Shown: piece after piece, positions 9,684 through 21,811 of the stretch | Layout: each line of letters starts with the position of its first letter | Numbering within the stretch: position 1 is the stretch's first letter | Assembly (NCBI RefSeq): GCF_018687785.1 | Contig: NZ_LTBL01000001.1 | Coordinates: forward strand, 1,851,780 to 1,915,779 | Direction of reading: 5' to 3' | DNA: 64,000 nt | Source of the DNA: Methanovulcanius yangii | Lineage (GTDB): Archaea; Halobacteriota; Methanomicrobia; Methanomicrobiales; Methanomicrobiaceae | Position numbers and translations under genes: made by a program | Notes under the pieces: generated by a model | The model's input: the letters and a program-made list of their open reading frames with translations, nothing else | The model's database searches: none | Told to the model about the DNA's origin: nothing

Positions 9684-10486
9684 TAGGCCGTTTCACCGGA
9701 AAAACGGGGCGCAGGGGCCATCTCATTCCCTATATTGCGGGGGATTCGGTGGTGCACCGGCTCGATCCGCGGACAAAGCTTGCCCTCCTCCTCGGGACGA
9801 GCCTGCTCACGCTTCTCACGGAGAGCCCGGTCGTGATGCTCATTCTTCTCGTTGCGGTCGCCGCGGCGGCTGCACTGTCGGGGCTCATGCGGCCGTGGCT
9901 CCATGCCCTGCGCATGCTCATCCCGTTCATGATCGTCATCATCGTCCTCGACCTCTTCTTCACGTCCCATGCGTCGGGGACCGTCTGGTGGTCGGCGCAG
10001 TGGTGGCTCCTCGCCCCGGCGCTGACGAGCGGAGGGACCGCCTTTACGATTGCGATGGCCCTTCGTCTCTTCGCCATCGGGGGGGTTTCGTTTCTCTTCG
10101 TGATGACGACCTCGTTCGACGACTTCGTGGGCGCGCTTCGGGCGATGCGGGTCCCGGACACCTTCTCCTTCTCCCTTGGGTTCGCCCTCAAATCGGTCGA
10201 ACACCTCTCCCGTGACGCCTCCTCCATCCTCGACGCCCAGCGCTCACGCGGGCTCGGCATCGACCGGGGCTTTATGCGAAATACCACCGGGATGCTCTCC
10301 ATCTTCATCCCGCTCACGGTCTCGGTCCTGCGGCGATCGGATGAGGTTGCCGATGCGATGCAGTGCCGGGGGTTCGGGCGTGAGGAACGGACGACGAACA
10401 GTACCGAATACCATTTTGGGTGGCACGACGCCGCCTTCTTCATCGCCCTTGCCGCGATTGCGGCGGCGGTGACGCTCATATCATGA
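9680..10486 (+). CDS. ECF transporter transmembrane (T) component
   Basis: A 268-residue EcfT/CbiQ-family protein with hydrophobic segments and the coupling-helix motif DAQRSRGLGID (the family's A-R-S/G box) near residue 190, followed by a second box around MQCRGFGRE. I chose the ATG at 9680, which overlaps the ATPase stop, rather than in-frame codons farther upstream inside the ATPase gene. It couples the ATPases to the S component at 7610. Together these form a complete ECF set in S-AA-T order. Confidence 0.9.
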   Translation: MIGRFTGKTGRRGHLIPYIAGDSVVHRLDPRTKLALLLGTSLLTLLTESPVVMLILLVAVAAAAALSGLMRPWLHALRMLIPFMIVIIVLDLFFTSHASGTVWWSAQWWLLAPALTSGGTAFTIAMALRLFAIGGVSFLFVMTTSFDDFVGALRAMRVPDTFSFSLGFALKSVEHLSRDASSILDAQRSRGLGIDRGFMRNTTGMLSIFIPLTVSVLRRSDEVADAMQCRGFGREERTTNSTEYHFGWHDAAFFIALAAIAAAVTLIS

Positions 10487-10503
10487 TGAGAGAGGACAAT
10501 CAG

Positions 10504-12126
10504 ATGCAGACAAGACAGGACATTCGACGAACCATCCCGAAGAGAACGCCGGCACGTATCCTGCAGTGCGCTTGTACTGCCGGGGTGGTACTTCTTCTTC
10601 TCTGCGGGATATGTGCGGCCCCGGTAGCGGCGGCCGATGTGCCGCTGACACCGCTGCCCGACGTGAAGCATGTAACCCTTGCCCTGCAGAACGGGGGAAC
10701 GAAATATCTCAAATTCGACGGCGGCGGCCTCAACTCCCTCCATATTACGACCAGCACGGCAGAGCCCTACGGACAGGTGACCATGACCGAGACCACCACG
10801 GGGACCTTCTATGCCTCGGATACGGGGAGCAGGGGGTTCGATGACGATATCGTGCTGATGGTCGCGGTGAAGAACCGGGCCGACGGGACGCTCCCCGACG
10901 ACCTGCGCATCACGGTCGGCGCCGGGGGGTACCAGTGGGAACCGATGCCCGAACTCAACCAGCCCCCGGGGATGGGGGATATCACCTATGTGGCGGAGAG
11001 TGCGGCGGTCACCCTCACGGCCGGCGACTTTACCTATGGCCCCCAGTCGTGGAAACCCGCAGGGGACAACGACCCCTTCAATTACCCCATCTACTACGGC
11101 CAGAATGTTGCTGCGGGGGAGGACTTCTCCCTCCTCTTCGTCGACCTGCACGCGGGGACCATCGGCCTGAATTCGGGTCTCTCCGGTCTCATCGATGCGG
11201 GCATGGTCCGCATTGACACCAGCGTCGAAGGGTGCGACACGCTGGTCTCGTTCTCCGTCTACGGCTGGTGCAAACAGTCCAATCAGGGTGAAGGCATCTC
11301 ATGGACGAACCGGCTCTCCGGGGCCGGCAGCAGCGGGTACGCCGTCGCCGGCAGCGGCGGCGGTGGGGGTGGCGACGCTCCCGCAGGCAGCGGCAGCACG
11401 GGCGGTGGGAATTCGGGCGACTCATCGGATGCCGTCCCCGCCTCCTCGTACATCCCGCCGTCTGCGCCTGCCGACTGGGACTCATCCTTCGGCGCCCTGA
11501 ATGTGACCTCCTCTCCTGGCGGCGCTGCCATCTTCATCGACGAGGTTGCGGTCGGGGGAACGACGAATATGACGATCGAGACCCTGCCGTCAGGGTTGTA
11601 CATTGTCCGGGTCGAACGCGAGGGCTATGAGACCCCGGACGATGCCGTGGTGACCATCCGCGACAATGCGACGAAGTCGCTCCACTTCACCCTCATCCCG
11701 AAGGAAGGGGTGATCTACGTCTACTCCGATCCGACGGGGGCGGAGGTCTGGGTGGACGGGGTGAAGACCCCGGTCAGGACGAACGGCGTCGTTCATATTC
11801 CCTGCGGGAACCACACGGTCAGGATGAACTACGGGGAATTCCTTGCGGTGGAACGGAACGTCACGGTATCCGATGCAGAGCCGGCCACGGTATTCGTCTC
11901 CTTCACCGAGGGGGGGACGTCCCTGACTTGGATGCAGGGGACACATCTCCCGACGAAACACCGGTTGCCACGGCATCTATTGTCACCGGGACTCCCGCCG
12001 GGACTTCCGGGGCGGAGCAGGGCGGCGACGGGGGCGATGCTTCCTTTTTTGGCGGAATGTGGTCATGGCTGCTCGGACTCTTCGGGGCCGATGCATCTCA
12101 GGGCACCGCGGACGCCGCCGGGATGA
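10504..12126 (+). CDS. Surface protein, A/B modules plus PEGA stalk, first part of a frameshifted gene
   Basis: The reading frame has 540 codons, of which about the first 470 are homologous coding sequence. A signal peptide precedes AADVPLTPL. Module A carries YLKFDGGGLNSLHITTS and TGTFYASDTGSRGF; module B carries FTYGPQSWKPAGDNDPFNYP and GISWTNRLSG. A Gly/Ser linker (about residues 280-310) leads to two PEGA domains (LNVTSSPGGAAIFIDE; VYSDPTGAEVWVDG). At a G7 run (11910-11916) the frame slips: the residues after FTEGGTS become Pro/Arg/His-rich, while the homologous sequence continues in the frame annotated at 11928. One added G would fuse both into one protein of about 880 residues. The ATG at 10504 has a GAGAGGA site; an ATG at 10483 overlaps the EcfT stop but lacks one. 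It lies directly downstream of EcfT. Confidence 0.75.
   Translation: MQTRQDIRRTIPKRTPARILQCACTAGVVLLLLCGICAAPVAAADVPLTPLPDVKHVTLALQNGGTKYLKFDGGGLNSLHITTSTAEPYGQVTMTETTTGTFYASDTGSRGFDDDIVLMVAVKNRADGTLPDDLRITVGAGGYQWEPMPELNQPPGMGDITYVAESAAVTLTAGDFTYGPQSWKPAGDNDPFNYPIYYGQNVAAGEDFSLLFVDLHAGTIGLNSGLSGLIDAGMVRIDTSVEGCDTLVSFSVYGWCKQSNQGEGISWTNRLSGAGSSGYAVAGSGGGGGGDAPAGSGSTGGGNSGDSSDAVPASSYIPPSAPADWDSSFGALNVTSSPGGAAIFIDEVAVGGTTNMTIETLPSGLYIVRVEREGYETPDDAVVTIRDNATKSLHFTLIPKEGVIYVYSDPTGAEVWVDGVKTPVRTNGVVHIPCGNHTVRMNYGEFLAVERNVTVSDAEPATVFVSFTEGGTSLTWMQGTHLPTKHRLPRHLLSPGLPPGLPGRSRAATGAMLPFLAECGHGCSDSSGPMHLRAPRTPPG
11910..11916 (+). other. G7 homopolymer at a frameshift site
   Basis: Seven consecutive G interrupt the surface-protein gene that starts at 10504. 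With eight G the reading becomes FTEGGDVPDLDAGDTSPDET and continues without interruption to the stop at 13145. The tract could be a slipped-strand (phase-variable) site, a recent mutation or a sequencing error. Confidence 0.75.
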
Positions 12127-13145
12127 ATGGCACAAATACGGAAGTGGCCGGTGATACGTCTGTACCGGCGCTGATGCCGGAACCGACGTCGGTGGCGGCG
12201 ATGGTAAATGGCACCCCCGCATCGGTGCCGGATGCCGGTGAATGCGCCCCCTCGCTCCTCCCCGGCGGCGTGTATGTCTCTTCCCTCCCCGGCGGAGCGG
12301 AGGTCCGGGTGGATGGCCTGACGGAGCCGGGGCGAACCCCCTGCGTCGTCGCCGGTCTCAAACCCGGTCCCCACCAGGTGGCGGTGATCGGAGGGGCCGG
12401 GGCCCGGACGATGCTTTCGCGGACCGTCTGGGTCTATCCCGGCGCGGTGACGCCGGCGGACTTTGATTTCGTCGGCACCGTCTATACGGCAACGATGGCG
12501 GCGGACCCCGACCAGGGATATGAAGGATTGCCGATGACCGTCGACGGCGCCTACCCGGAACTCTCCACCTCGACGGCAGTGACGGTGAAGCAGTCCGGCT
12601 CCTACATCACGTTCCGTGAAGGGGAGAATCTCTATTCCTGCATGGTTGCCACCGTGGGGGACATGAACCATGTCGTCGAGTGGAAGCGCCGTCCGCTTGC
12701 CTCGGTGGAGGTCGTGACCGAACCTGCAGGTGCGATGGTATTTGTCGACGGCTACCTGATGGACGACCGGACGCCGTGCACCATTGCCACCGTCTCCGAA
12801 GGGCGGCACTATGTGATGGTTGCAAAGGAGGGATACCTTCCCGACGGACAGGAGATCAATATCGCCGATACGATTCAGGACTGCGACCGGACGGTCCCGT
12901 TCCTGCTGAAAGAGTATGCGGCAGGCACCCTGAACGTCACCAGTGAACCGGATGCGGCCAGCATCTTCCTGAACGGGCGCTATACGGGGCTCTCGACTCC
13001 CGCGACCTTCGCTGACCTTCCTATCGGCACCTATGAGGTGGGATGTTCGAAGAACGGCACCATGGCAGGTTCGCGAAGCGTCACCGTGACCCCCGCCGCC
13101 ACGGTCGCCTGCGCCATCCTTCTGGATCCGGTGACAGGGACCTGA
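11928..13145 (+). CDS. Surface protein PEGA stalk, second part of the frameshifted gene
   Basis: An open frame of 405 codons whose only start near its beginning is TTG and which lacks a signal peptide, so it is most likely the continuation of the gene at 10504 rather than a separate gene. It holds a Thr/Pro-rich linker, the motif MWSWLLGLFG, then three PEGA-type repeats: GGVYVSSLPGGAEVRVDG, VEVVTEPAGAMVFVDGY and LNVTSEPDAASIFLNGRY. The arrangement matches the C-terminal half of the intact protein at 16197 (ILSWLAGLFG followed by three PEGA repeats). A T-rich run right after the stop (13152-13158) looks like an archaeal terminator. Confidence 0.7.
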   Translation: MDAGDTSPDETPVATASIVTGTPAGTSGAEQGGDGGDASFFGGMWSWLLGLFGADASQGTADAAGMNGTNTEVAGDTSVPALMPEPTSVAAMVNGTPASVPDAGECAPSLLPGGVYVSSLPGGAEVRVDGLTEPGRTPCVVAGLKPGPHQVAVIGGAGARTMLSRTVWVYPGAVTPADFDFVGTVYTATMAADPDQGYEGLPMTVDGAYPELSTSTAVTVKQSGSYITFREGENLYSCMVATVGDMNHVVEWKRRPLASVEVVTEPAGAMVFVDGYLMDDRTPCTIATVSEGRHYVMVAKEGYLPDGQEINIADTIQDCDRTVPFLLKEYAAGTLNVTSEPDAASIFLNGRYTGLSTPATFADLPIGTYEVGCSKNGTMAGSRSVTVTPAATVACAILLDPVTGT

Positions 13146-13983: not shown

Positions 13984-15294
13984 GTGTGTATGCATGTGAA
14001 GGCCGGAGGGGCGGGCGGCCACCGGGAAAAAGTTGTGGTCACCGCCCTCCTGATCTGTGCTCTCCTGATACCCTGCACGGCGGCCGTTCCGGGCAGGAGC
14101 GACGGTCCGAATGGGGCGGAGGACCTCTGGGGACCGTACCTGACGGGCATGGATGCCGAAAGCGTTCAGGTTCGCTGGCATGGTGATGGTGTCTCCGGTG
14201 TGGAATACCGGCAACCCGGGGGTACTGTCTGGAACGAAGCATCCGCCGTCTCCGCCGGGGAGGGGTTCTGGTATGCCCCGATCACCGGTCTTGCCCCGGA
14301 TACGACCTATGAGTACCGCCTCGCGGACGGTCTCGGCGGCGGCCCGTACACCTTCACCACATTCCCTGCGGCGGGGCCTGTCACCTTTGCGGTGGTCGGC
14401 GACACGCAGGACGACCCGACGGTCCCCGTCCCGGACGGGCGGACGCCCCTCGTGGCAGCGGCGATCGCGGAGGATGAAGACTGCATGTTCCTCCTCCACC
14501 TCGGCGATACAGTCGGCGACCCCCGCGATGAGGCCGAATGGGGGCGGTTCTTTGCGGAGATGGGCCCGGTCATTGCGCATATTCCCCTCTATCCGGTGAT
14601 GGGGAACCATGAACGCAACCTCACCGTCTGGTATGCCGCCTTCGGGTATCCGGAGTGGTACACCTTCTCCTGCGGCGATGTGCCCGTGGTCGTGCTCGAC
14701 AGCAACGACTGGGCATCGCCGCGGGCTGAGGAGCAGGACGCCTGGTTGCAGGAGACCCTGGCGGAAACGGAAGGGTCCGCCATCGTTGCATTCCACCATC
14801 CGCCGTACGCCGACGACGCGAAGCACCCCGGCGGATGGCGGCAGTTCGCCGAGAGGTGGGAACCGCTCTTTGCGGTGCACAACGTGCCGCTTGTCCTCTC
14901 CGGCCATGTCCATGCCTACGAGCGCTACGATCGGGACGGACGGGTCTGGATCGTTGCGGGGACCGGGGGCGGTCCCCTGTATCCCCTGACGGATGAGAAG
15001 GGGGAGGGATGTATCGTGGCGGTCGAGCGCACCATCGGGTACCTCCGTATCGGCTATGATGGTGCAGGCGGGTGGACCGGCGTCTATACCGCCGCAGGAG
15101 AGATCACCGGCGAGGGGACGGCACGCCCATATGATGAACCGCAGGTGATGGATACGTTCTCTTTGCCTGCGTCCGCTCCGGACGAGGACATGACCCCACC
15201 AGTGGCCGATCCGTCCTGTCCCGCTCTTGCCGCGGTGGCATGGGGGGCGGCAGGGCTCCTCCTCGGAGTGCGCATACAAAACAGGGGTAATTAA
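13984..15294 (+). CDS. Secreted metallophosphoesterase with N-terminal FN3-like domain (purple-acid-phosphatase type)
   Basis: 436 residues. A signal peptide (about 17-36) precedes an FN3-like domain (VQVRWHGDGVSGVEYRQPGG ... GLAPDTTYEYRL, about 50-130), then a calcineurin-like phosphoesterase domain with all metal motifs: VVGDTQD, LHLGDTVGD, MGNHER, FHHPPY and GHVHAYERY. A short hydrophobic C-terminus (ALAAVAWGAAGLLLGV) followed by RIQNRGN anchors it. Domain order matches purple acid phosphatases, suggesting phosphate release from organic esters outside the cell. The GTG at 13984 is 10 bases from an AAAGGGGG site; the in-frame ATG at 13990 is an alternative. Confidence 0.9.
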   Translation: MCMHVKAGGAGGHREKVVVTALLICALLIPCTAAVPGRSDGPNGAEDLWGPYLTGMDAESVQVRWHGDGVSGVEYRQPGGTVWNEASAVSAGEGFWYAPITGLAPDTTYEYRLADGLGGGPYTFTTFPAAGPVTFAVVGDTQDDPTVPVPDGRTPLVAAAIAEDEDCMFLLHLGDTVGDPRDEAEWGRFFAEMGPVIAHIPLYPVMGNHERNLTVWYAAFGYPEWYTFSCGDVPVVVLDSNDWASPRAEEQDAWLQETLAETEGSAIVAFHHPPYADDAKHPGGWRQFAERWEPLFAVHNVPLVLSGHVHAYERYDRDGRVWIVAGTGGGPLYPLTDEKGEGCIVAVERTIGYLRIGYDGAGGWTGVYTAAGEITGEGTARPYDEPQVMDTFSLPASAPDEDMTPPVADPSCPALAAVAWGAAGLLLGVRIQNRGN

Positions 15295-15317: not shown

Positions 15318-15332
15318 AAAAGGAATCCTTTT
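15318..15332. promoter_or_regulatory. Perfect inverted repeat before the five-gene surface operon
   Basis: AAAAGGA-A-TCCTTTT has two 7-base arms around a single base. The loop is too small for an RNA hairpin, so a protein-binding site is more likely than a terminator. It lies between the phosphoesterase stop and the start of the operon at 15371, in an AT-rich stretch with possible TATA elements (15293-15310 and TTTATA near 15356). Confidence 0.4.
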
Positions 15333-15370: not shown

Positions 15371-16195
15371 GTGGTGTTCAGGCACGTGGTAAGAAAACAG
15401 TCAGTGATGCTGATCCTCATCCTCATGTGCTGTGCGGGATTTGTTCTGCATGCAGGAGCGGCAACGACGGAGGTCACAGTTACGCGGTACAGTTCCGACG
15501 GGGCGCTCCTCTCAGAGAACGGTCCCTACACGTTCGAGTGGATGGAGGCAAACCTGCCGGTCATGGGCGACGGGAGTACGCATTACTATATGCAGGGGCC
15601 GAGCTTTGACGAAGCAAATCTCTGGGATCCGTCGGAAACCGTCAATACGGAGAGCAGGGATCTGGGTGCGCTGAAGGGTACCGATGTGGCGGATCTCTGC
15701 GACCTTGCGGGAGGCATGAAGGAAGGGGACGTCCTCCGCATCATCGCCGAGGACGGGTTCTTCAAGAACTTCCCCTACACGTCTGTCTATGACCCCCCGG
15801 TACGGCAGGGGCCGATGGTTCTCGCCTGGTACAACGGCGGGGAACCCTCGGCCGCCGAGCCGCAGGGGCTGGGGTATCCACCTGACTACTACACCGGCAT
15901 GCGCCTCGCCTTCTTTGCGGACACCTCGGTGAACCCGGATGGCAATCACATCTTCGGGAACACCGACATGCAGGCAGTACTTCCCGACGAATACCGGCAT
16001 TATTTCAGCGGAAAATGGCCATCATCGAGCGGTCTTTCGGTGAAGTACGTCAGTGAACTCCGGATCATCGAAGCAGAGGGGCCGGCACCCGCCACCCCTG
16101 CCCCGGAGGAGACTACCGCGCCCGCTCCCGTGATCGCGGCGGCAGCCGCCCTGCTCTGTGCCGGGTGGTATGCGACCCGGCGCAGACGTGAGTGA
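15371..16195 (+). CDS. Surface protein with degenerate SUOX/molybdopterin-fold-like domain (paralogue 1)
   Basis: 274 residues: signal peptide (MLILILMCCAGFVLHAGA), one domain, a Thr/Pro-rich linker (PATPAPEETTAPAPV) and a C-terminal hydrophobic tail with RRRRE, like an archaeal sorting or anchor signal. The domain contains WMEANLPVMGDGSTHYYMQG, KGTDVADLCDLAGG, a GFFKNFPYTSVYDPPVRQGP strand, FFADTSVNPDGNHIFGN and ends LSVKYVSELRI. The block order (G-x-x-L-x-D-L, DGF..FPY, W-Y-N-G, G-x-R-L, VK-V-x-I) resembles the sulfite-oxidase/molybdopterin fold with an insertion, without the molybdenum-binding Cys. Start choice is uncertain (GTG 15371/15374 or ATG 15407). First gene of a tight operon. Confidence 0.8.
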   Translation: MVFRHVVRKQSVMLILILMCCAGFVLHAGAATTEVTVTRYSSDGALLSENGPYTFEWMEANLPVMGDGSTHYYMQGPSFDEANLWDPSETVNTESRDLGALKGTDVADLCDLAGGMKEGDVLRIIAEDGFFKNFPYTSVYDPPVRQGPMVLAWYNGGEPSAAEPQGLGYPPDYYTGMRLAFFADTSVNPDGNHIFGNTDMQAVLPDEYRHYFSGKWPSSSGLSVKYVSELRIIEAEGPAPATPAPEETTAPAPVIAAAAALLCAGWYATRRRRE

Positions 16196-16196
16196 T

Positions 16197-19100
16197 ATGA
16201 AGGTTGGCCGGCTCGTGTGTAGCGTATGCTGCCTTTTCCTCCTGATGCTGGTACTCGCAACTGTTCCTGCAGCCGCCGCCACGACTGAACTGACGGTTGT
16301 GCGATACACATCGACGGGCGCGGTTGCGCAGGAGAAGACCGTCACCTATGAGTGGATGGAGGCAAACCTGCCGGTGCAGGGCGACGGGACGACCCATTAC
16401 TACCATCAGGGGCCCGTATTTGAAGGCGAATGGGAACGGGTGCATCCCGGTGAGACCTATGATTACTGGGACCCTGCCGAGACCGTGAACTACCGGACAA
16501 AGGACTATGGCGCGGCGAAAGGGACGGCGGTGCGGGACCTCTGTGATCTCGTGGGAGGCATGTCCGACGGAGATACTGTCAAAATCATTGCATCGGACGG
16601 TTTTTACAAATATTTCCCGTATGATGCGATATATCGCCCACCATCCCGTATGGGAACGGCGGTGGTGACATGGTACCGTCCTGATTACGGGTATGTCCCG
16701 AATTATTTTGAAGGCATGCGGCTCGTCTTTTTTGCGGATACCTCCACGAATCCGGACGGATGGCACGTATTCGGCATTACCGATATGAAGGAAACGCTGC
16801 CTGAAGAGTACTGGCACTGGTACTGGGGGAGTCCCACTGACAAGTATCCCACAACAACGGGTCTCTCGGTCCAGTATCTCTCCCGCATTGAAATTTATCC
16901 CGGTTCCTCGGGGGTCGGCCCCGTTAGCGGAGGGGGTGGGAGTGATGATTCCTTTACATGGAAGCCCGAGATGGGCCGCCTGAATGTCACCTCGAGTCCG
17001 TCCGGAGCCGCCGTAATTCTCGACGGCGAGGAGACGGAGTACCTCACCAATGCGAGCATTGCGGATCTGCCCGTTGGAGATTATGGGGTGACCGTTGTCC
17101 GGGACGGATATGCGTCTCCCCGCGAAGTTTGGGTCACCGTCCCGGCCGACGGGACGGCGCAGTGGCATTTTGATCTTGAGGAGCTGTATGCACCACTCAT
17201 GGTCAGGACGTGGCCGGAGGATGCCGTGTTCTTCCTTGATGGGGAGAATATCGGGCGCCCTGCCGGGGTGGCGTTGGGCGCCGTCACCGTCGCAAACCAT
17301 TCGGTGACGGTGACGGCGGAAGGATATGTCCCCGAAACCCGACATTTCCGGGTGGAGGACGGCGAGGGAGCGGAGATTCTGATTGCACTGTCTCCGGTCA
17401 TTGCCCCTGAAATTCCGGACAGGACCAACGAAACACTCTGTTCCTTCGGCCCCGGCACCGTGGGGGAGAATGTATCCCTCCCCTCCCTCTCCCTGATCGA
17501 TGGAGAGGGGAACATTCTTACTCCGGGAGCGTCTGTCGAAGCGGTCTCTCCGGCCGGGCGCCTCTATATCTGCCTCTCCAACGGGTACAACAGCACCCGT
17601 GGCGAGGGGGTTCAGCCACAGTTCGAGGTGCAGTCCGGCGAGACCGTTCTCTTTCCAAAAGAGTACTACGGGTGTTCCGTTACCGGCCCCGCTGGAGAGA
17701 CGGTGGCGGTTACGGGCATCTATGAAGCACCGGCAGGCAGGGTCAGGGTGACAGGGACCGGCGGGTGCAACGATACGGCGATCGTCGGGGCCGTTGCCGT
17801 CCTCACTGCAAGCGAGGGGCCCCGGAACGGGTGGTATGCAACCTTCGAAGGAGTCACCCCTGCATCGGGCGTGATCGGTGAGATCACCCTTCCTTCTGCA
17901 GCGTATGCACACGAGGGGAATGTGTCAATGGAGGTACTCCTCACCACCAAACCGGATTCGGTCCTGCCTGACTTTTCCCTTGGGGATCACCGGCTGGAAA
18001 CGGCGAGTGTGGAACGTTTGCCGCGTGCGGTGCTCGTACGGTTTGTCCCCGTTCCTGTTCCCGGGACGGGAGCCGTGTTCATGGCAGATGGTGACGGGGA
18101 GGCGCTGATGCATCTTCTCCTCGTGAGTGGGGCCTCCGGCGACGTGGAAGGTATGGAGGGCGCGTTCGCCACTGAAGAGACCCCCGAACCCCGCGATGAC
18201 GGAGGATGGTTCGGTGCAATCCTCTCATGGCTGGCAGGGCTCTTTGGACAGGACAGCCCCAATTCAGAAACCTCGCCGACTCCGGTAGCGGAAGTGCCGA
18301 CCTCCCCTCCTCAGGAGGAGACGCCGGCGGCCGCTGTACCGACCCCGGAGGAAACGGCCACTCCGGCGGACCGGGAGACCGGGGCCACCATCCCTCCCCG
18401 GGGCATGTATGTCACATCCGTCCCCGTCGGTGCTGCCATCTCCCTCGACGGGAAGGCGACGGGGGATACCACCCCCGCCCTCTTCACCGGGCTCAAAGAG
18501 GGGTTGCACCGTGTGAGCGTACGGCATAGCGCAAGCGGACGGACGGAAACCTCCGATGTCTGGGTGCATGACGGGATGCTTGTCCCGGTGGACTTCACCC
18601 TCGTGGGGGATCCCATAGAATCGGAGGTGACGATACGCTCTGCGGATGGGGAACCGGTGGAATTCACCTTGAATGGCGCTTACCCCCTCTACGAAACCCC
18701 GAAAGATGTGACCCTTACCACTCCCGTTTCATGGGTGGCGACGCAGACGGACGGGGCATTCATCTCCGTGATGGTCCCGTTCTCACCCCGCAATGGTGAG
18801 ATTGTCCTTCCGGCAGCAGGTATGACATCGTCCCCCTGTTCCCTTCGCGTTCAGTCGGAGCCGGAAGGGGCGGCGATCTTCGTCGACGGGTATCCGACCG
18901 GCCTTCATACCCCTGCCACCGTCGAAAAGCTCTCGACGGGAGTTCACACCGTAACGATTCACCTGGACGGCTACCTGCCGGATTCACGGGAGATACAACT
19001 CGTGGACCTGCCCCGGGCCGTCGATGAGGAGGTCGGTTTTACGCTCGCCCCCTATGCTTCGGGCGACATGTGCCTCACCTCGGATCCGGCGGGGGCCAAG

Positions 19101-19319
19101 GTCTACCTCTACGGGAGATACATCGGGTGCCGGACGCCCTGCACCGTCTCCGGGATGGCAATCGGGACCTATGCGGTCGGGTTCACTCTCGAAGATACGT
19201 CACGGGTGGTTGATGTGACCGTCATCCCCGGGGGCGTGGCAGAGGGGGTATGCATCTTCCACGATCTCGTGGATGAGAATGGCAATGGACAGACAGAAAC
19301 GAATGAGGAAATTGAATGA
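16197..19319 (+). CDS. Large surface protein: SUOX-like domain on a five-PEGA stalk (paralogue 2)
   Basis: 1040 residues from the ATG at 16197, one base after the previous stop. A signal peptide is followed by a domain paralogous to those at 15371 and 19319 (WMEANLPVQGDGTTHYYHQG; VRDLCDLVGGMSDGD; FFADTSTNPDGWHVFG), two PEGA repeats (LNVTSSPSGAAVILDG; VRTWPEDAVFFLDG), a beta-rich region with VGENVSLPSLSLIDGEGN, the motif ILSWLAGLFG, a Pro/Thr/Glu linker and three more PEGA-like repeats (MYVTSVPVGAAISLDG; LRVQSEPEGAAIFVDGY; MCLTSDPAGAKVYLYGRY). It ends without an anchor, in DENGNGQTETNEE, which resembles one EF-hand/dockerin-type loop. PEGA domains are common in archaeal surface proteins. Function unknown; ligand binding is inferred. 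Confidence 0.85.
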   Translation: MKVGRLVCSVCCLFLLMLVLATVPAAAATTELTVVRYTSTGAVAQEKTVTYEWMEANLPVQGDGTTHYYHQGPVFEGEWERVHPGETYDYWDPAETVNYRTKDYGAAKGTAVRDLCDLVGGMSDGDTVKIIASDGFYKYFPYDAIYRPPSRMGTAVVTWYRPDYGYVPNYFEGMRLVFFADTSTNPDGWHVFGITDMKETLPEEYWHWYWGSPTDKYPTTTGLSVQYLSRIEIYPGSSGVGPVSGGGGSDDSFTWKPEMGRLNVTSSPSGAAVILDGEETEYLTNASIADLPVGDYGVTVVRDGYASPREVWVTVPADGTAQWHFDLEELYAPLMVRTWPEDAVFFLDGENIGRPAGVALGAVTVANHSVTVTAEGYVPETRHFRVEDGEGAEILIALSPVIAPEIPDRTNETLCSFGPGTVGENVSLPSLSLIDGEGNILTPGASVEAVSPAGRLYICLSNGYNSTRGEGVQPQFEVQSGETVLFPKEYYGCSVTGPAGETVAVTGIYEAPAGRVRVTGTGGCNDTAIVGAVAVLTASEGPRNGWYATFEGVTPASGVIGEITLPSAAYAHEGNVSMEVLLTTKPDSVLPDFSLGDHRLETASVERLPRAVLVRFVPVPVPGTGAVFMADGDGEALMHLLLVSGASGDVEGMEGAFATEETPEPRDDGGWFGAILSWLAGLFGQDSPNSETSPTPVAEVPTSPPQEETPAAAVPTPEETATPADRETGATIPPRGMYVTSVPVGAAISLDGKATGDTTPALFTGLKEGLHRVSVRHSASGRTETSDVWVHDGMLVPVDFTLVGDPIESEVTIRSADGEPVEFTLNGAYPLYETPKDVTLTTPVSWVATQTDGAFISVMVPFSPRNGEIVLPAAGMTSSPCSLRVQSEPEGAAIFVDGYPTGLHTPATVEKLSTGVHTVTIHLDGYLPDSREIQLVDLPRAVDEEVGFTLAPYASGDMCLTSDPAGAKVYLYGRYIGCRTPCTVSGMAIGTYAVGFTLEDTSRVVDVTVIPGGVAEGVCIFHDLVDENGNGQTETNEEIE

Positions 19320-20176
19320 TGAAAGAAATGAATGTACGATCAATCGCCTGTATCCTGGTACTCTCTCTCGCACTCCTCTGTGTGGGCGTAGGACCGGCTG
19401 CCGCCACCCCGACGGAGGGAATCACCATTTCCCTCCTTGACGGGGCAAACGAAACCATCCTTGCAACGAAGTACGTGGATTACCGCTGGATGGAGGCGAA
19501 CCTTCCCGTCTACGGCGACGGCACGACCCATTACTACCATCAGGGACCGGTCTTCTCCGAGGACCCGATGGTGGCCTGGGACCAGAACGAGACCGCGAAT
19601 TACAAGGACCACGGTGCCCCGAAGGGAACGGACGTGGCCGACCTCTGCGACCTCGTGGGCGGTGCGGCCCCCGGCGATGAGGTGATGATCAAGGCGGGCG
19701 ACGGGTACAACGTCGTCTTCCCGTACGAGAACATCTACACCCCCGACCCGCGGCAGGGGCCGATGGTCCTCTGCTGGTACAACGGCGAGGAGGCGGAGTA
19801 TGGTGCCCGGCAGGGCGTCGGCTACGTGCCGGACGACTACTACAACGGGATTCACCTGCTCTTTTTCGCCGACACCTCCACGAATGCGGAGGGCCTGCAT
19901 GTGTACGGCAACTGGGACATGCACGAGACGATGCCGGGTTCGGCCCAGCACTTCTATGACCTGAGCCCCTCGACAAACGGCTTCACCGTCAAGTGGGTCG
20001 ACGAGGTACGCCTCTATCGCGGCGGCTACAGCGGCGACCGGACGGCGCCCGTCAAGTCGCTCGCCGGCGAGGACGGTGCGGCGGACGGACCGGTTCCGAC
20101 CGAGTCTCCCGCTCCGCTCGCGGGCCTTGCGGGGCTTGCAGCAGCGGGCCTTCTCCTCAGGAGGGTGGGGGCATGA
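19319..20176 (+). CDS. Surface protein with SUOX-like domain (paralogue 3)
   Basis: 285 residues from the second of two adjacent ATGs (19316 and 19319), overlapping the previous gene; GAGGAAATTGA precedes. A signal peptide is followed by the shared domain: WMEANLPVYGDGTTHYYHQG, KGTDVADLCDLVGGAAPGDE, GYNVVFPYENIYTPDPRQGP, FFADTSTNAEGLHVYGNWDM and FTVKWVDEVRLY. A Pro/Thr linker precedes the tail PLAGLAGLAAAGLLLRRVGA, a hydrophobic/Arg C-terminal signal like those recognised by archaeosortases. Its stop overlaps the next start by four bases. The domain has no Cys at the molybdenum-ligand position of sulfite oxidases, so catalysis of that type is not expected. Confidence 0.82.
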   Translation: MKEMNVRSIACILVLSLALLCVGVGPAAATPTEGITISLLDGANETILATKYVDYRWMEANLPVYGDGTTHYYHQGPVFSEDPMVAWDQNETANYKDHGAPKGTDVADLCDLVGGAAPGDEVMIKAGDGYNVVFPYENIYTPDPRQGPMVLCWYNGEEAEYGARQGVGYVPDDYYNGIHLLFFADTSTNAEGLHVYGNWDMHETMPGSAQHFYDLSPSTNGFTVKWVDEVRLYRGGYSGDRTAPVKSLAGEDGAADGPVPTESPAPLAGLAGLAAAGLLLRRVGA

Positions 20177-20736
20177 AACGGGCACCGGTGTGGACGCTCC
20201 TTCTCCTCCTCGTCCTTGCCGCCGCCTGCGGCTGCACGGACAGCGGCCAGACGGCACCGGCGGCGCCCGAACCGCTTGAGGGGACGGTCACGATAATCCA
20301 CGGAGGCACTTCCGTCACCTATGATTACGATGATATCGCCACGATGCCCGCCTGGGAAGGGATGGCATATGCCGTCTCGACCGTCGGCATCAAGTATGGG
20401 CCGTACCAGGCAAAGGGCGTCCCCCTCATCGACCTGATCACCCTCTCCGGCTCCTTCGAAGAAGAGAACCAGGCCTGGATCTCGGCGGACGACGGGTATA
20501 TGTGGGTCTTCGATTACGATCAGGTGATGGGCGAGGGGTTCATCACCTTCGACGAGGATCTGAAGGAGATCCCGTCTCCGCCGCTCACTGTCATCCTCAT
20601 GTACGAACAGGACGGCCAGCCCCTCTCCTATGACGATGGCGGGCCGTTCCGGGTCGTCGTTGCCACTGATGAAGGAGGCGTCATCACCGAGGGAAGTTCC
20701 TGGGTGAAGTGGGTATCGGCGATCGAGGTGAAGTAA
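20173..20736 (+). CDS. Lipoprotein with SUOX/molybdopterin-fold-like domain
   Basis: 187 residues. The lipobox LAAACGC near residue 20 predicts a membrane lipoprotein. The domain of about 150 residues shows the order expected of the oxidoreductase molybdopterin-binding fold: VTYDYDDIATMP, KYGPYQAKGVPLIDLITLSG, WISADDGYMWVFDYDQV, LMYEQDGQPLSYDDGGPFRV and a final SWVKWVSAIEV. The molybdenum-ligand Cys is absent. It is a smaller version of the domain in the three preceding genes, without their extra THYYHQG and ADTS..HVFG segments. A GGAGGGTGGGG site precedes the ATG; the stop is one base from the WtpA start. Inference: binds a pterin, metal oxyanion or related ligand. Confidence 0.82.
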   Translation: MKRAPVWTLLLLLVLAAACGCTDSGQTAPAAPEPLEGTVTIIHGGTSVTYDYDDIATMPAWEGMAYAVSTVGIKYGPYQAKGVPLIDLITLSGSFEEENQAWISADDGYMWVFDYDQVMGEGFITFDEDLKEIPSPPLTVILMYEQDGQPLSYDDGGPFRVVVATDEGGVITEGSSWVKWVSAIEVK

Positions 20737-20737
20737 G

Positions 20738-21745
20738 GTGACCGACCGGACCGCCCCCGCCGCCCTCCTCCTGCTCCTCCTTGCCGGCATGCTGGTGACC
20801 TGCGGGTGCACGGGGAATGGCGGGGAGGACGAGCCGGTCGTCCTCAACGTGGTGGCGGCGGGTAGTGTCCTCGGCCCCCTCGGGGAGGTCGAGGCGGCCT
20901 TCGAGGCGGACCACCCGGGCGTCGACGTCCGCGTGGAGGGCCACGGGTCCATCCAGTGCATCCGGCAGGTGACCGACCTTCACCGCGACTTCGATGTCGT
21001 CATCGTCGCTGACGAGACGCTCATTCCGGATATGATGTACCGGGAGGATGAACGCACCGGTGAGGCCTATGCAGATTCCTATACCCCGTTCGCCCGCAAT
21101 GCGGTGGTCGTCGCCTACACCCCGCAGAGCCGGTACGGCGATGCGATCACAGCTGAGAACTGGTATGAAGTTCTCTCCCGCCCGGATGTGCGGGTGGGAT
21201 TCTCGAACCCGATGCTCGATGCCGCAGGGTACCGGGCGTTGATGGTTCTTCTCCTTGCAGAGGAGTACTACGGCGAGGCGGGGCTCTTCGCGGGCATCGC
21301 CGGCGACCACTGTGCCCCGGCCCTGACGGTGACGGAAACGGGCGGCGTGCAGAGGGTCACCCTCCCGGAGGTGCTCGAGCCGGACGGGACGAAACTCGTC
21401 ATCAGGGACGGGAGCATCTTTCTCCTCTCCCACCTTGAGTCGGGAGGCATCGACTATGCCTTCGAGTATAAGAGCGTCGCAGAGGAGCACGGCCTGCAGT
21501 ACATCTCCCTTCCGCCGGCAATCGACCTGAGCACCCCGGTCCATGCAGAGAATTACCGGACCGTTGAGGTGACTCTTGGTTTCCAGCGCTTCAGTAGTAT
21601 CGGGAGCGTCAGGACCGGCGTGCCGGTGGTCTATGGTGTCGTGGTGCCGGCGGGGGCGACGAACCCGGCGCTTGCAGAGGAGTTTGCCGGGTACGTGACG
21701 GCGATGTTCGGTGAGGGCGGGTACGGGTGGCCTGCGGTGTATTGA
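20738..21745 (+). CDS. wtpA: Tungstate/molybdate ABC transporter substrate-binding lipoprotein (WtpA family)
   Basis: 335 residues with GTG start, signal peptide and lipobox VTCGC. Family features include LNVVAAGSVLGPLGEVEAAF, GHGSIQCIRQVTDL, DVVIVADETLIPDMMY, VRVGFSNPMLDAAGYRALMV, the ligand-loop region DYAFEYKSVAEEHGLQYISL, and PVVYGVVVPAGATNP. In WtpA proteins the acidic residue of the EYKSVA region contributes to the oxyanion site, and it is kept here. Normal length. No WtpB permease or WtpC ATPase gene follows, which is unusual; the permease may be elsewhere. Last gene of the five-gene operon. Confidence 0.88.
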   Translation: MTDRTAPAALLLLLLAGMLVTCGCTGNGGEDEPVVLNVVAAGSVLGPLGEVEAAFEADHPGVDVRVEGHGSIQCIRQVTDLHRDFDVVIVADETLIPDMMYREDERTGEAYADSYTPFARNAVVVAYTPQSRYGDAITAENWYEVLSRPDVRVGFSNPMLDAAGYRALMVLLLAEEYYGEAGLFAGIAGDHCAPALTVTETGGVQRVTLPEVLEPDGTKLVIRDGSIFLLSHLESGGIDYAFEYKSVAEEHGLQYISLPPAIDLSTPVHAENYRTVEVTLGFQRFSSIGSVRTGVPVVYGVVVPAGATNPALAEEFAGYVTAMFGEGGYGWPAVY

Positions 21746-21811
21746 AGAGAATGGATGTGGGGTTTTTCGCCCGTTTCTCTTCGTTTGCCCACATCCATTG
21801 GAGGTGCTGAG

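Follow-up and report, generated by a model that had tools for sequence, protein, structure and literature searches.

Through formylmethanofuran and formate dehydrogenases, tungsten and molybdenum are essential to hydrogenotrophic methanogens and to methane- or ethane-oxidising archaea, and to our knowledge little is known about how these archaea gather the two metals at the cell surface. Among the systems closest to the locus described here, the binding protein WtpA coordinates tungsten octahedrally with two carboxylate ligands and hands tungstate or molybdate to WtpBC, and PruR–DcpA/DTB systems are found in Proteobacteria. The WtpA tungstate ligands in Pyrococcus furiosus are Glu218 and Asp160, the latter of which sets tungstate selectivity (PMC10221389). 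PruR is a secreted, periplasmic pterin-binding protein of approximately 170 amino acids (aa) with the sulfite oxidase (SUOX) fold but without the Mo-ligating Cys, which is replaced by Trp; it binds pterin through Tyr104, Asn/Asp102 and Trp160, and its partner is a transmembrane regulator (PMC13259868). Here we analysed a 64,000-nucleotide stretch of Methanovulcanius yangii DNA (the window; assembly GCF_018687785.1, contig NZ_LTBL01000001.1, positions 1,851,780–1,915,779), in which five consecutive genes (A–E, 15371–21745) encode surface proteins with predicted SUOX-like domains (A–D) and a WtpA-type binding lipoprotein (E). An earlier note, made from the letters of this DNA, had read them as an operon that collects an oxyanion, pterin or metal-pterin cofactor at the cell surface; that reading stands in part, having missed the wtpB and wtpC genes that follow E in relatives and a metallophosphatase gene upstream. 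On balance, we consider it probable that the products of the operon form an exported module that captures oxyanions of the tungstate/molybdate class for Wtp-type uptake, with PruR-like proteins presenting the ligand. The arrangement is real and strongly conserved, a variant form of a Wtp-type uptake operon, and is apparently undescribed, as no earlier account of this module in methanogens was found in the open-access literature.

The sequence and its translations confirmed that the five genes are exported and tightly packed, with single-base gaps between A and B and between D and E, and four-base overlaps between B and C (ATGA) and between C and D. By inspection, all five proteins begin with a signal-like hydrophobic segment, followed in D (...AACGCTDS) and E (...VTCGCTGN) by a lipobox-like Cys. 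The C-termini of A and C consist of a hydrophobic helix and basic residues; B has no such anchor and carries instead five PEGA stretches. The paralogy of the domain common to A, B and C, also proposed earlier, holds at 45–51% identity.

Conservation of the neighbourhood is strong. Of 60 genomes sampled from the order Methanomicrobiales, 29 have relatives of C, and almost every stretch examined there groups C, D and E. Of 295 genomes sampled from the phylum, 32 have relatives of D, and these belong either to this order or to two further families. A D profile run against 84,980 genomes matched 63 loci, 58 of them with true D relatives (L078–L135, here the 58 named loci; some of the sampled genomes are the same assemblies, and the two sets are not additive). 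In 55 of these 58, C adjoins D on the upstream side, and in 55, E does so on the downstream side; contig ends, fragments or an inserted gene account for most exceptions. Because the same C-D-E order recurs in approximately 55 of the 58 named loci, the arrangement is not due to chance. Carriers within the order include Methanogenium, Methanofollis, Methanoculleus, Methanoregula, Methanolinea, Methanocalculus, Methanocorpusculum and Methanospirillum; outside it they include Methanophagales, Candidatus Argoarchaeum and one metagenome-assembled genome (MAG) each of Methanosarcinales and Methanosaeta (Methanothrix). The module is kept in hydrogenotrophic methanogens and in anaerobic methanotrophic (ANME) and other alkane-oxidising archaea, and ties a pterin-binding type of fold to Wtp-type uptake. 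In one genome (G015; loci L057 and L092), C and D occur without E alongside, and an E-like gene lies on another contig (G015:C26) near a giant C-domain protein, suggesting that the link between E and the C-type domain persists after relocation. Two copies of the module stand in contigs labelled Clostridiaceae and Omnitrophota (L113 and L127); because their gene order and sequence are close to the archaeal copies, these contigs appear to be misbinned archaeal DNA.

The earlier statement that E has no permease or ATPase holds for this lineage, as none of Wtp type was found within the 6 kb scanned after E, but not for relatives: in 16 of the 58 named loci, E is directly followed, often with an overlap, by genes that have their best scores to WtpB and/or WtpC. 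These scores lie below the NCBIfam curated cut-offs, as do those of the canonical WtpB and WtpC of M. yangii itself. A search elsewhere in this genome, which the note had suggested, located a complete canonical wtpABC, and E would therefore share its transporter or act otherwise. In five genomes, no WtpA other than E is encoded. Two of them (G031 and G033) have wtpBC alongside E; in the other three (G030, G035 and G045), wtpBC occupies another place with no wtpA accompanying it, whereas congeners of these three that lack the module (G040, G050 and G055) have wtpA next to wtpB. Of all the evidence that E serves a WtpBC transporter, this replacement of canonical wtpA by E is the strongest. The notion that E is a degenerate orphan is weakened by these five genomes, in which E stands as sole WtpA. 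Directly upstream of the module, Methanolinea UBA275 (L098:6055–8004) and L104 have a TupA-like gene together with a fused double binding protein (PBP_like_2 plus a WtpA-like domain), an observation that we count in favour of uptake.

Classification of E as a WtpA-type binding protein was borne out: E scores 309 bits against TIGR03730, the NCBIfam WtpA equivalog (cut-off, 242.75 bits), and 281.6 bits against the stricter NF003196, below its cut-off of 355. The Asp160 ligand is kept. The 77 operon copies of E nevertheless split from nine canonical or solved WtpA sequences with a support of 0.998, and the locus further differs from WtpABC in having SUOX-fold surface genes and a phosphatase gene ahead of E. 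Signature residues of E near the pocket motifs are His69, Val90, Met159 and Ala162 (window numbering); in the operon clade, the His before the second Gly-Ser motif is invariant, Ser is changed to Val at 90 and Asn to Met at 159.

For D, the note had proposed a sulfite oxidase/molybdopterin fold without its Cys ligand, and Pfam match, structural model, structure search and profile alignment all agree. D scores 34.1 bits (E = 2.5e-8) against PF00174 (Oxidored_molyb; cut-off, 24 bits). Searched against solved structures, an AlphaFold2 model built from 34 homologues (mean pLDDT 92.1) gave 35 matches with E < 0.001, every one of them PruR or SUOX-type. PruR from Vibrio vulnificus ranked first (7kom; E = 4.9e-7, TM 0.72 by target), ahead of YedY, SoxC, sulfite dehydrogenases and sulfite oxidases. 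The predicted fold class was thus as expected, but the nearest solved structures are pterin-binding proteins rather than oxidases. Neither the fold comparison nor the neighbourhood conservation, both named beforehand as results that could overturn the earlier reading, came out against it. Alignment by hhalign with a Cys-containing SUOX-type profile that includes protein P0006 of the same genome (98.9% probability) placed Ser69 of D on the position of the Mo-ligating Cys, where the D homologues have Ser (31/34) or Thr (3/34). Because none of the 34 has the Cys found in sulfite oxidase, YedY (MsrP) and SoxC, a classical molybdenum cofactor (Moco) oxidoreductase role is unlikely for D. D and A–C are best regarded as exported SUOX-fold proteins, not classical Moco enzymes.

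D also resembles PruR in being exported, in its small size and in having a DxY motif. It differs in being an archaeal lipoprotein with Ser/Thr rather than Trp at the Cys position, in having as partner a WtpA-type binding protein and not DcpA/DTB (no DcpA/DTB regulator gene was found in the conserved neighbourhood of the module), and in that its pterin binding is only predicted. Residue alignment of D with PruR (7kos) gave a weak match (E = 0.72). Besides the DGY motif, R160, E173, W177, K179 and W180 are invariant among the 34 homologues; because the Cys-containing P0006 has both DGY and the C-terminal W-x-K-W, these characterise the fold rather than PruR specifically. A tblastn search of plasmids with D, seeking a PruR sequence, returned only Cys-containing sulfite-oxidase-type and unrelated matches. 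The top 'Cake' matches in a PDB profile search with D were discounted as sums of weak, partial repeat matches to designed repeat proteins. A 546-aa protein that carries a C-type domain is encoded approximately 3 kb from P0006 itself (L148:1–630; own genome C1 ~1187147).

The domain of A, B and C, for which the same fold had been claimed, exceeds no Pfam or NCBIfam family cut-off. Profile comparison relates it to D over 39 columns (97.1% probability, E = 7.6e-11), with the common core KG..V.DL..LVGG....D.V.I.A.DGY...F.Y..V, and Foldseek with an AlphaFold2 model of C (pLDDT 83.1) retrieved nitrate reductase, PruR and SoxC at E values of 3e-4 to 8e-4. These matches support a predicted SUOX-like fold with moderate confidence for the core, more weakly than for D; the support does not extend to a large insertion, in which a GDGxTHYYHQGPxF motif is conserved. 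The module provides a first functional handle for a SUOX-like domain that is repeated in giant surface proteins of these archaea. A cluster of such proteins (up to 1944 aa) lies approximately 30–60 kb past the window end (L066:8128–13962, own genome C1 ~1971628, and L065); tandem SUOX-like repeats occur in it beside C-type and PKD domains, and one of its proteins passes PF00174 (60 bits).

The conserved unit takes in the phosphoesterase gene at 13984–15294, beyond the extent given in the earlier note. Its product matches PF00149 (59.3 bits, E = 8.8e-16; cut-off, 21.5 bits), with PF16656 sub-threshold, and shows the metal-binding motifs GDTVGD, GNHE and GHVH of calcineurin-like or purple acid phosphatases. 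Relatives of this gene are present in 32 of the 58 named loci, in approximately 18 directly before C. Unlike known phosphatases of this type, they are linked to the C-type domain, and in six loci (L082, L083, L130, L132, L133 and L134) the two domains are fused in one protein.

A transport role for the module is well supported. In the mechanism that we propose, a small ligand, of pterin type or a metal oxyanion, would most likely be bound outside the membrane by D and the surface-anchored or secreted A–C, from which E would receive the oxyanion and deliver it to WtpBC, adjacent in some relatives and in trans here through a transporter shared with the canonical wtpABC; the metallophosphatase would probably trim phosphate groups off the captured compound. 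The ligand of C and D may be an oxyanion, a pterin or a metal-pterin, plausibly tungstate/molybdate or a pterin carrying one of these; it is the fold similarity to PruR that brings a pterin into this picture. Such a module suggests an unrecognised route of tungsten, molybdenum or pterin capture at the cell surface. An unlikely version is extracellular salvage, in which A–D would capture tungsto- or molybdopterin, or another pterin-bound metal, released as cofactor by other cells; Ser69 of D might then serve as metal ligand, the phosphatase would dephosphorylate the cofactor and E would pass the freed oxyanion to WtpBC.

The main rival, which we find doubtful, takes the SUOX-like domains as general building blocks of surface proteins and the WtpA link as co-transcription without joint function. 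M. yangii has 13 matches to the C domain, many in surface proteins of 550–1940 aa, and C-type domains occur in many giant surface proteins bearing PKD or PEGA domains, where their repetition with PKD domains suggests structural use. These observations weigh against a capture module, and further results do so too. Most carriers, M. yangii included, also have a canonical wtpABC (census of WtpA and WtpB), and a simple scan gave no convincing operator common to the operon and the canonical wtpA promoter. E has the Asp160 equivalent and lacks that of Glu218, and so departs from the two-carboxylate ligand set; at the latter position, placed through the 3cg1 alignment, canonical methanomicrobial WtpA has Ser too, but is followed two residues later by a Glu, where 69 of the 77 E copies have an aromatic residue (Tyr/Phe). 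Because Glu218 is gone and the next acidic position is aromatic, tungstate binding by E may be altered. Yet without a shared function it is difficult to account for a C-D-E order that is strict over six families and more distant orders, for the wtpBC genes attached to it and for the exchange of E with canonical wtpA.

The altered pocket of the operon clade and the linked metallophosphatase would also fit a module that scavenges phosphate or sulfur, with E carrying another oxyanion, such as phosphate from the phosphatase, or sulfate. We regard this as improbable, as the Asp160 equivalent, the tungstate-selectivity residue (PMC10221389), is kept in 77/77 copies, the adjacent transporters score best as WtpB/WtpC (though below curated cut-offs) and no phosphate-transport gene was seen next to the C-D-E trio. 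Pterin sensing, in which D (and C) would bind an extracellular pterin as a signal and control a partner, and E would report or tune oxyanion status, draws on PruR being the nearest solved fold to D, and on PruR itself being a small secreted protein without Cys that is paired with a transmembrane regulator (PMC13259868). It is nonetheless improbable: PruR-like signalling is made less likely by the lack of a conserved regulator gene beside the module, whose conserved neighbourhood includes no sensor kinase or cyclic-di-GMP gene. Moreover, D is constantly accompanied by a binding protein of ABC type with wtpBC, and has Ser where PruR has Trp.

Table 1 Coordinates of the genes and residues discussed (positions in the window)
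Feature	Position	Strand	Description
Metallophosphatase gene	13984–15294	+	436-aa open reading frame (ORF), exported, calcineurin-like/purple-acid-phosphatase-like
Gene A	15371–16195	+	Exported, C-terminally anchored, one C-type SUOX-like domain; start may be 15404/15407
Gene B	16197–19319	+	ATG start; 1040 aa, exported; C-type domain at approximately residues 30–235, then PEGA stretches
Gene C	19316–20176	+	Exported C-type domain with C-terminal anchor; of the partners of D, the most conserved
Gene D	20173–20736	+	187-aa lipoprotein, predicted PruR/SUOX-fold domain without Mo-ligating Cys
D Ser69-Thr70	20377–20382	+	Ser69 at position of Mo-ligating Cys in Cys-containing SUOX-domain proteins
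D Asp107-Gly108-Tyr109	20491–20499	+	Invariant (34/34); candidate counterpart of PruR Asn102/Tyr104, predicted only
Gene E	20738–21745	+	GTG start; WtpA-type oxyanion-binding lipoprotein, separate clade
E Asp161	21218–21220	+	Equivalent of P. furiosus WtpA tungstate ligand Asp160 (77/77)
E Ser226	21413–21415	+	In place of second tungstate ligand Glu218; Ser in 77/77

Several minor features flank the genes. The start of gene A may lie downstream of 15371, because a TATA-like TTTATA ends approximately 10 bases before this position. Between the phosphatase gene and gene A, a perfect palindrome, AAAAGGAATCCTTTT (15318–15332), is a possible operator; it was not found before the canonical wtpA. Directly past E, a 12-bp inverted repeat, AATGGATGTGGG/CCCACATCCATT (21750–21799), is a possible terminator, and the hairpin there was not significant against shuffles (z = −0.9). 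Farther upstream, at 10420–13145, a PEGA surface protein appears to be split by a frameshift near 11930 into two ORFs of 568 and 405 aa that overlap in different frames, reflecting either a pseudogene or a sequencing error.

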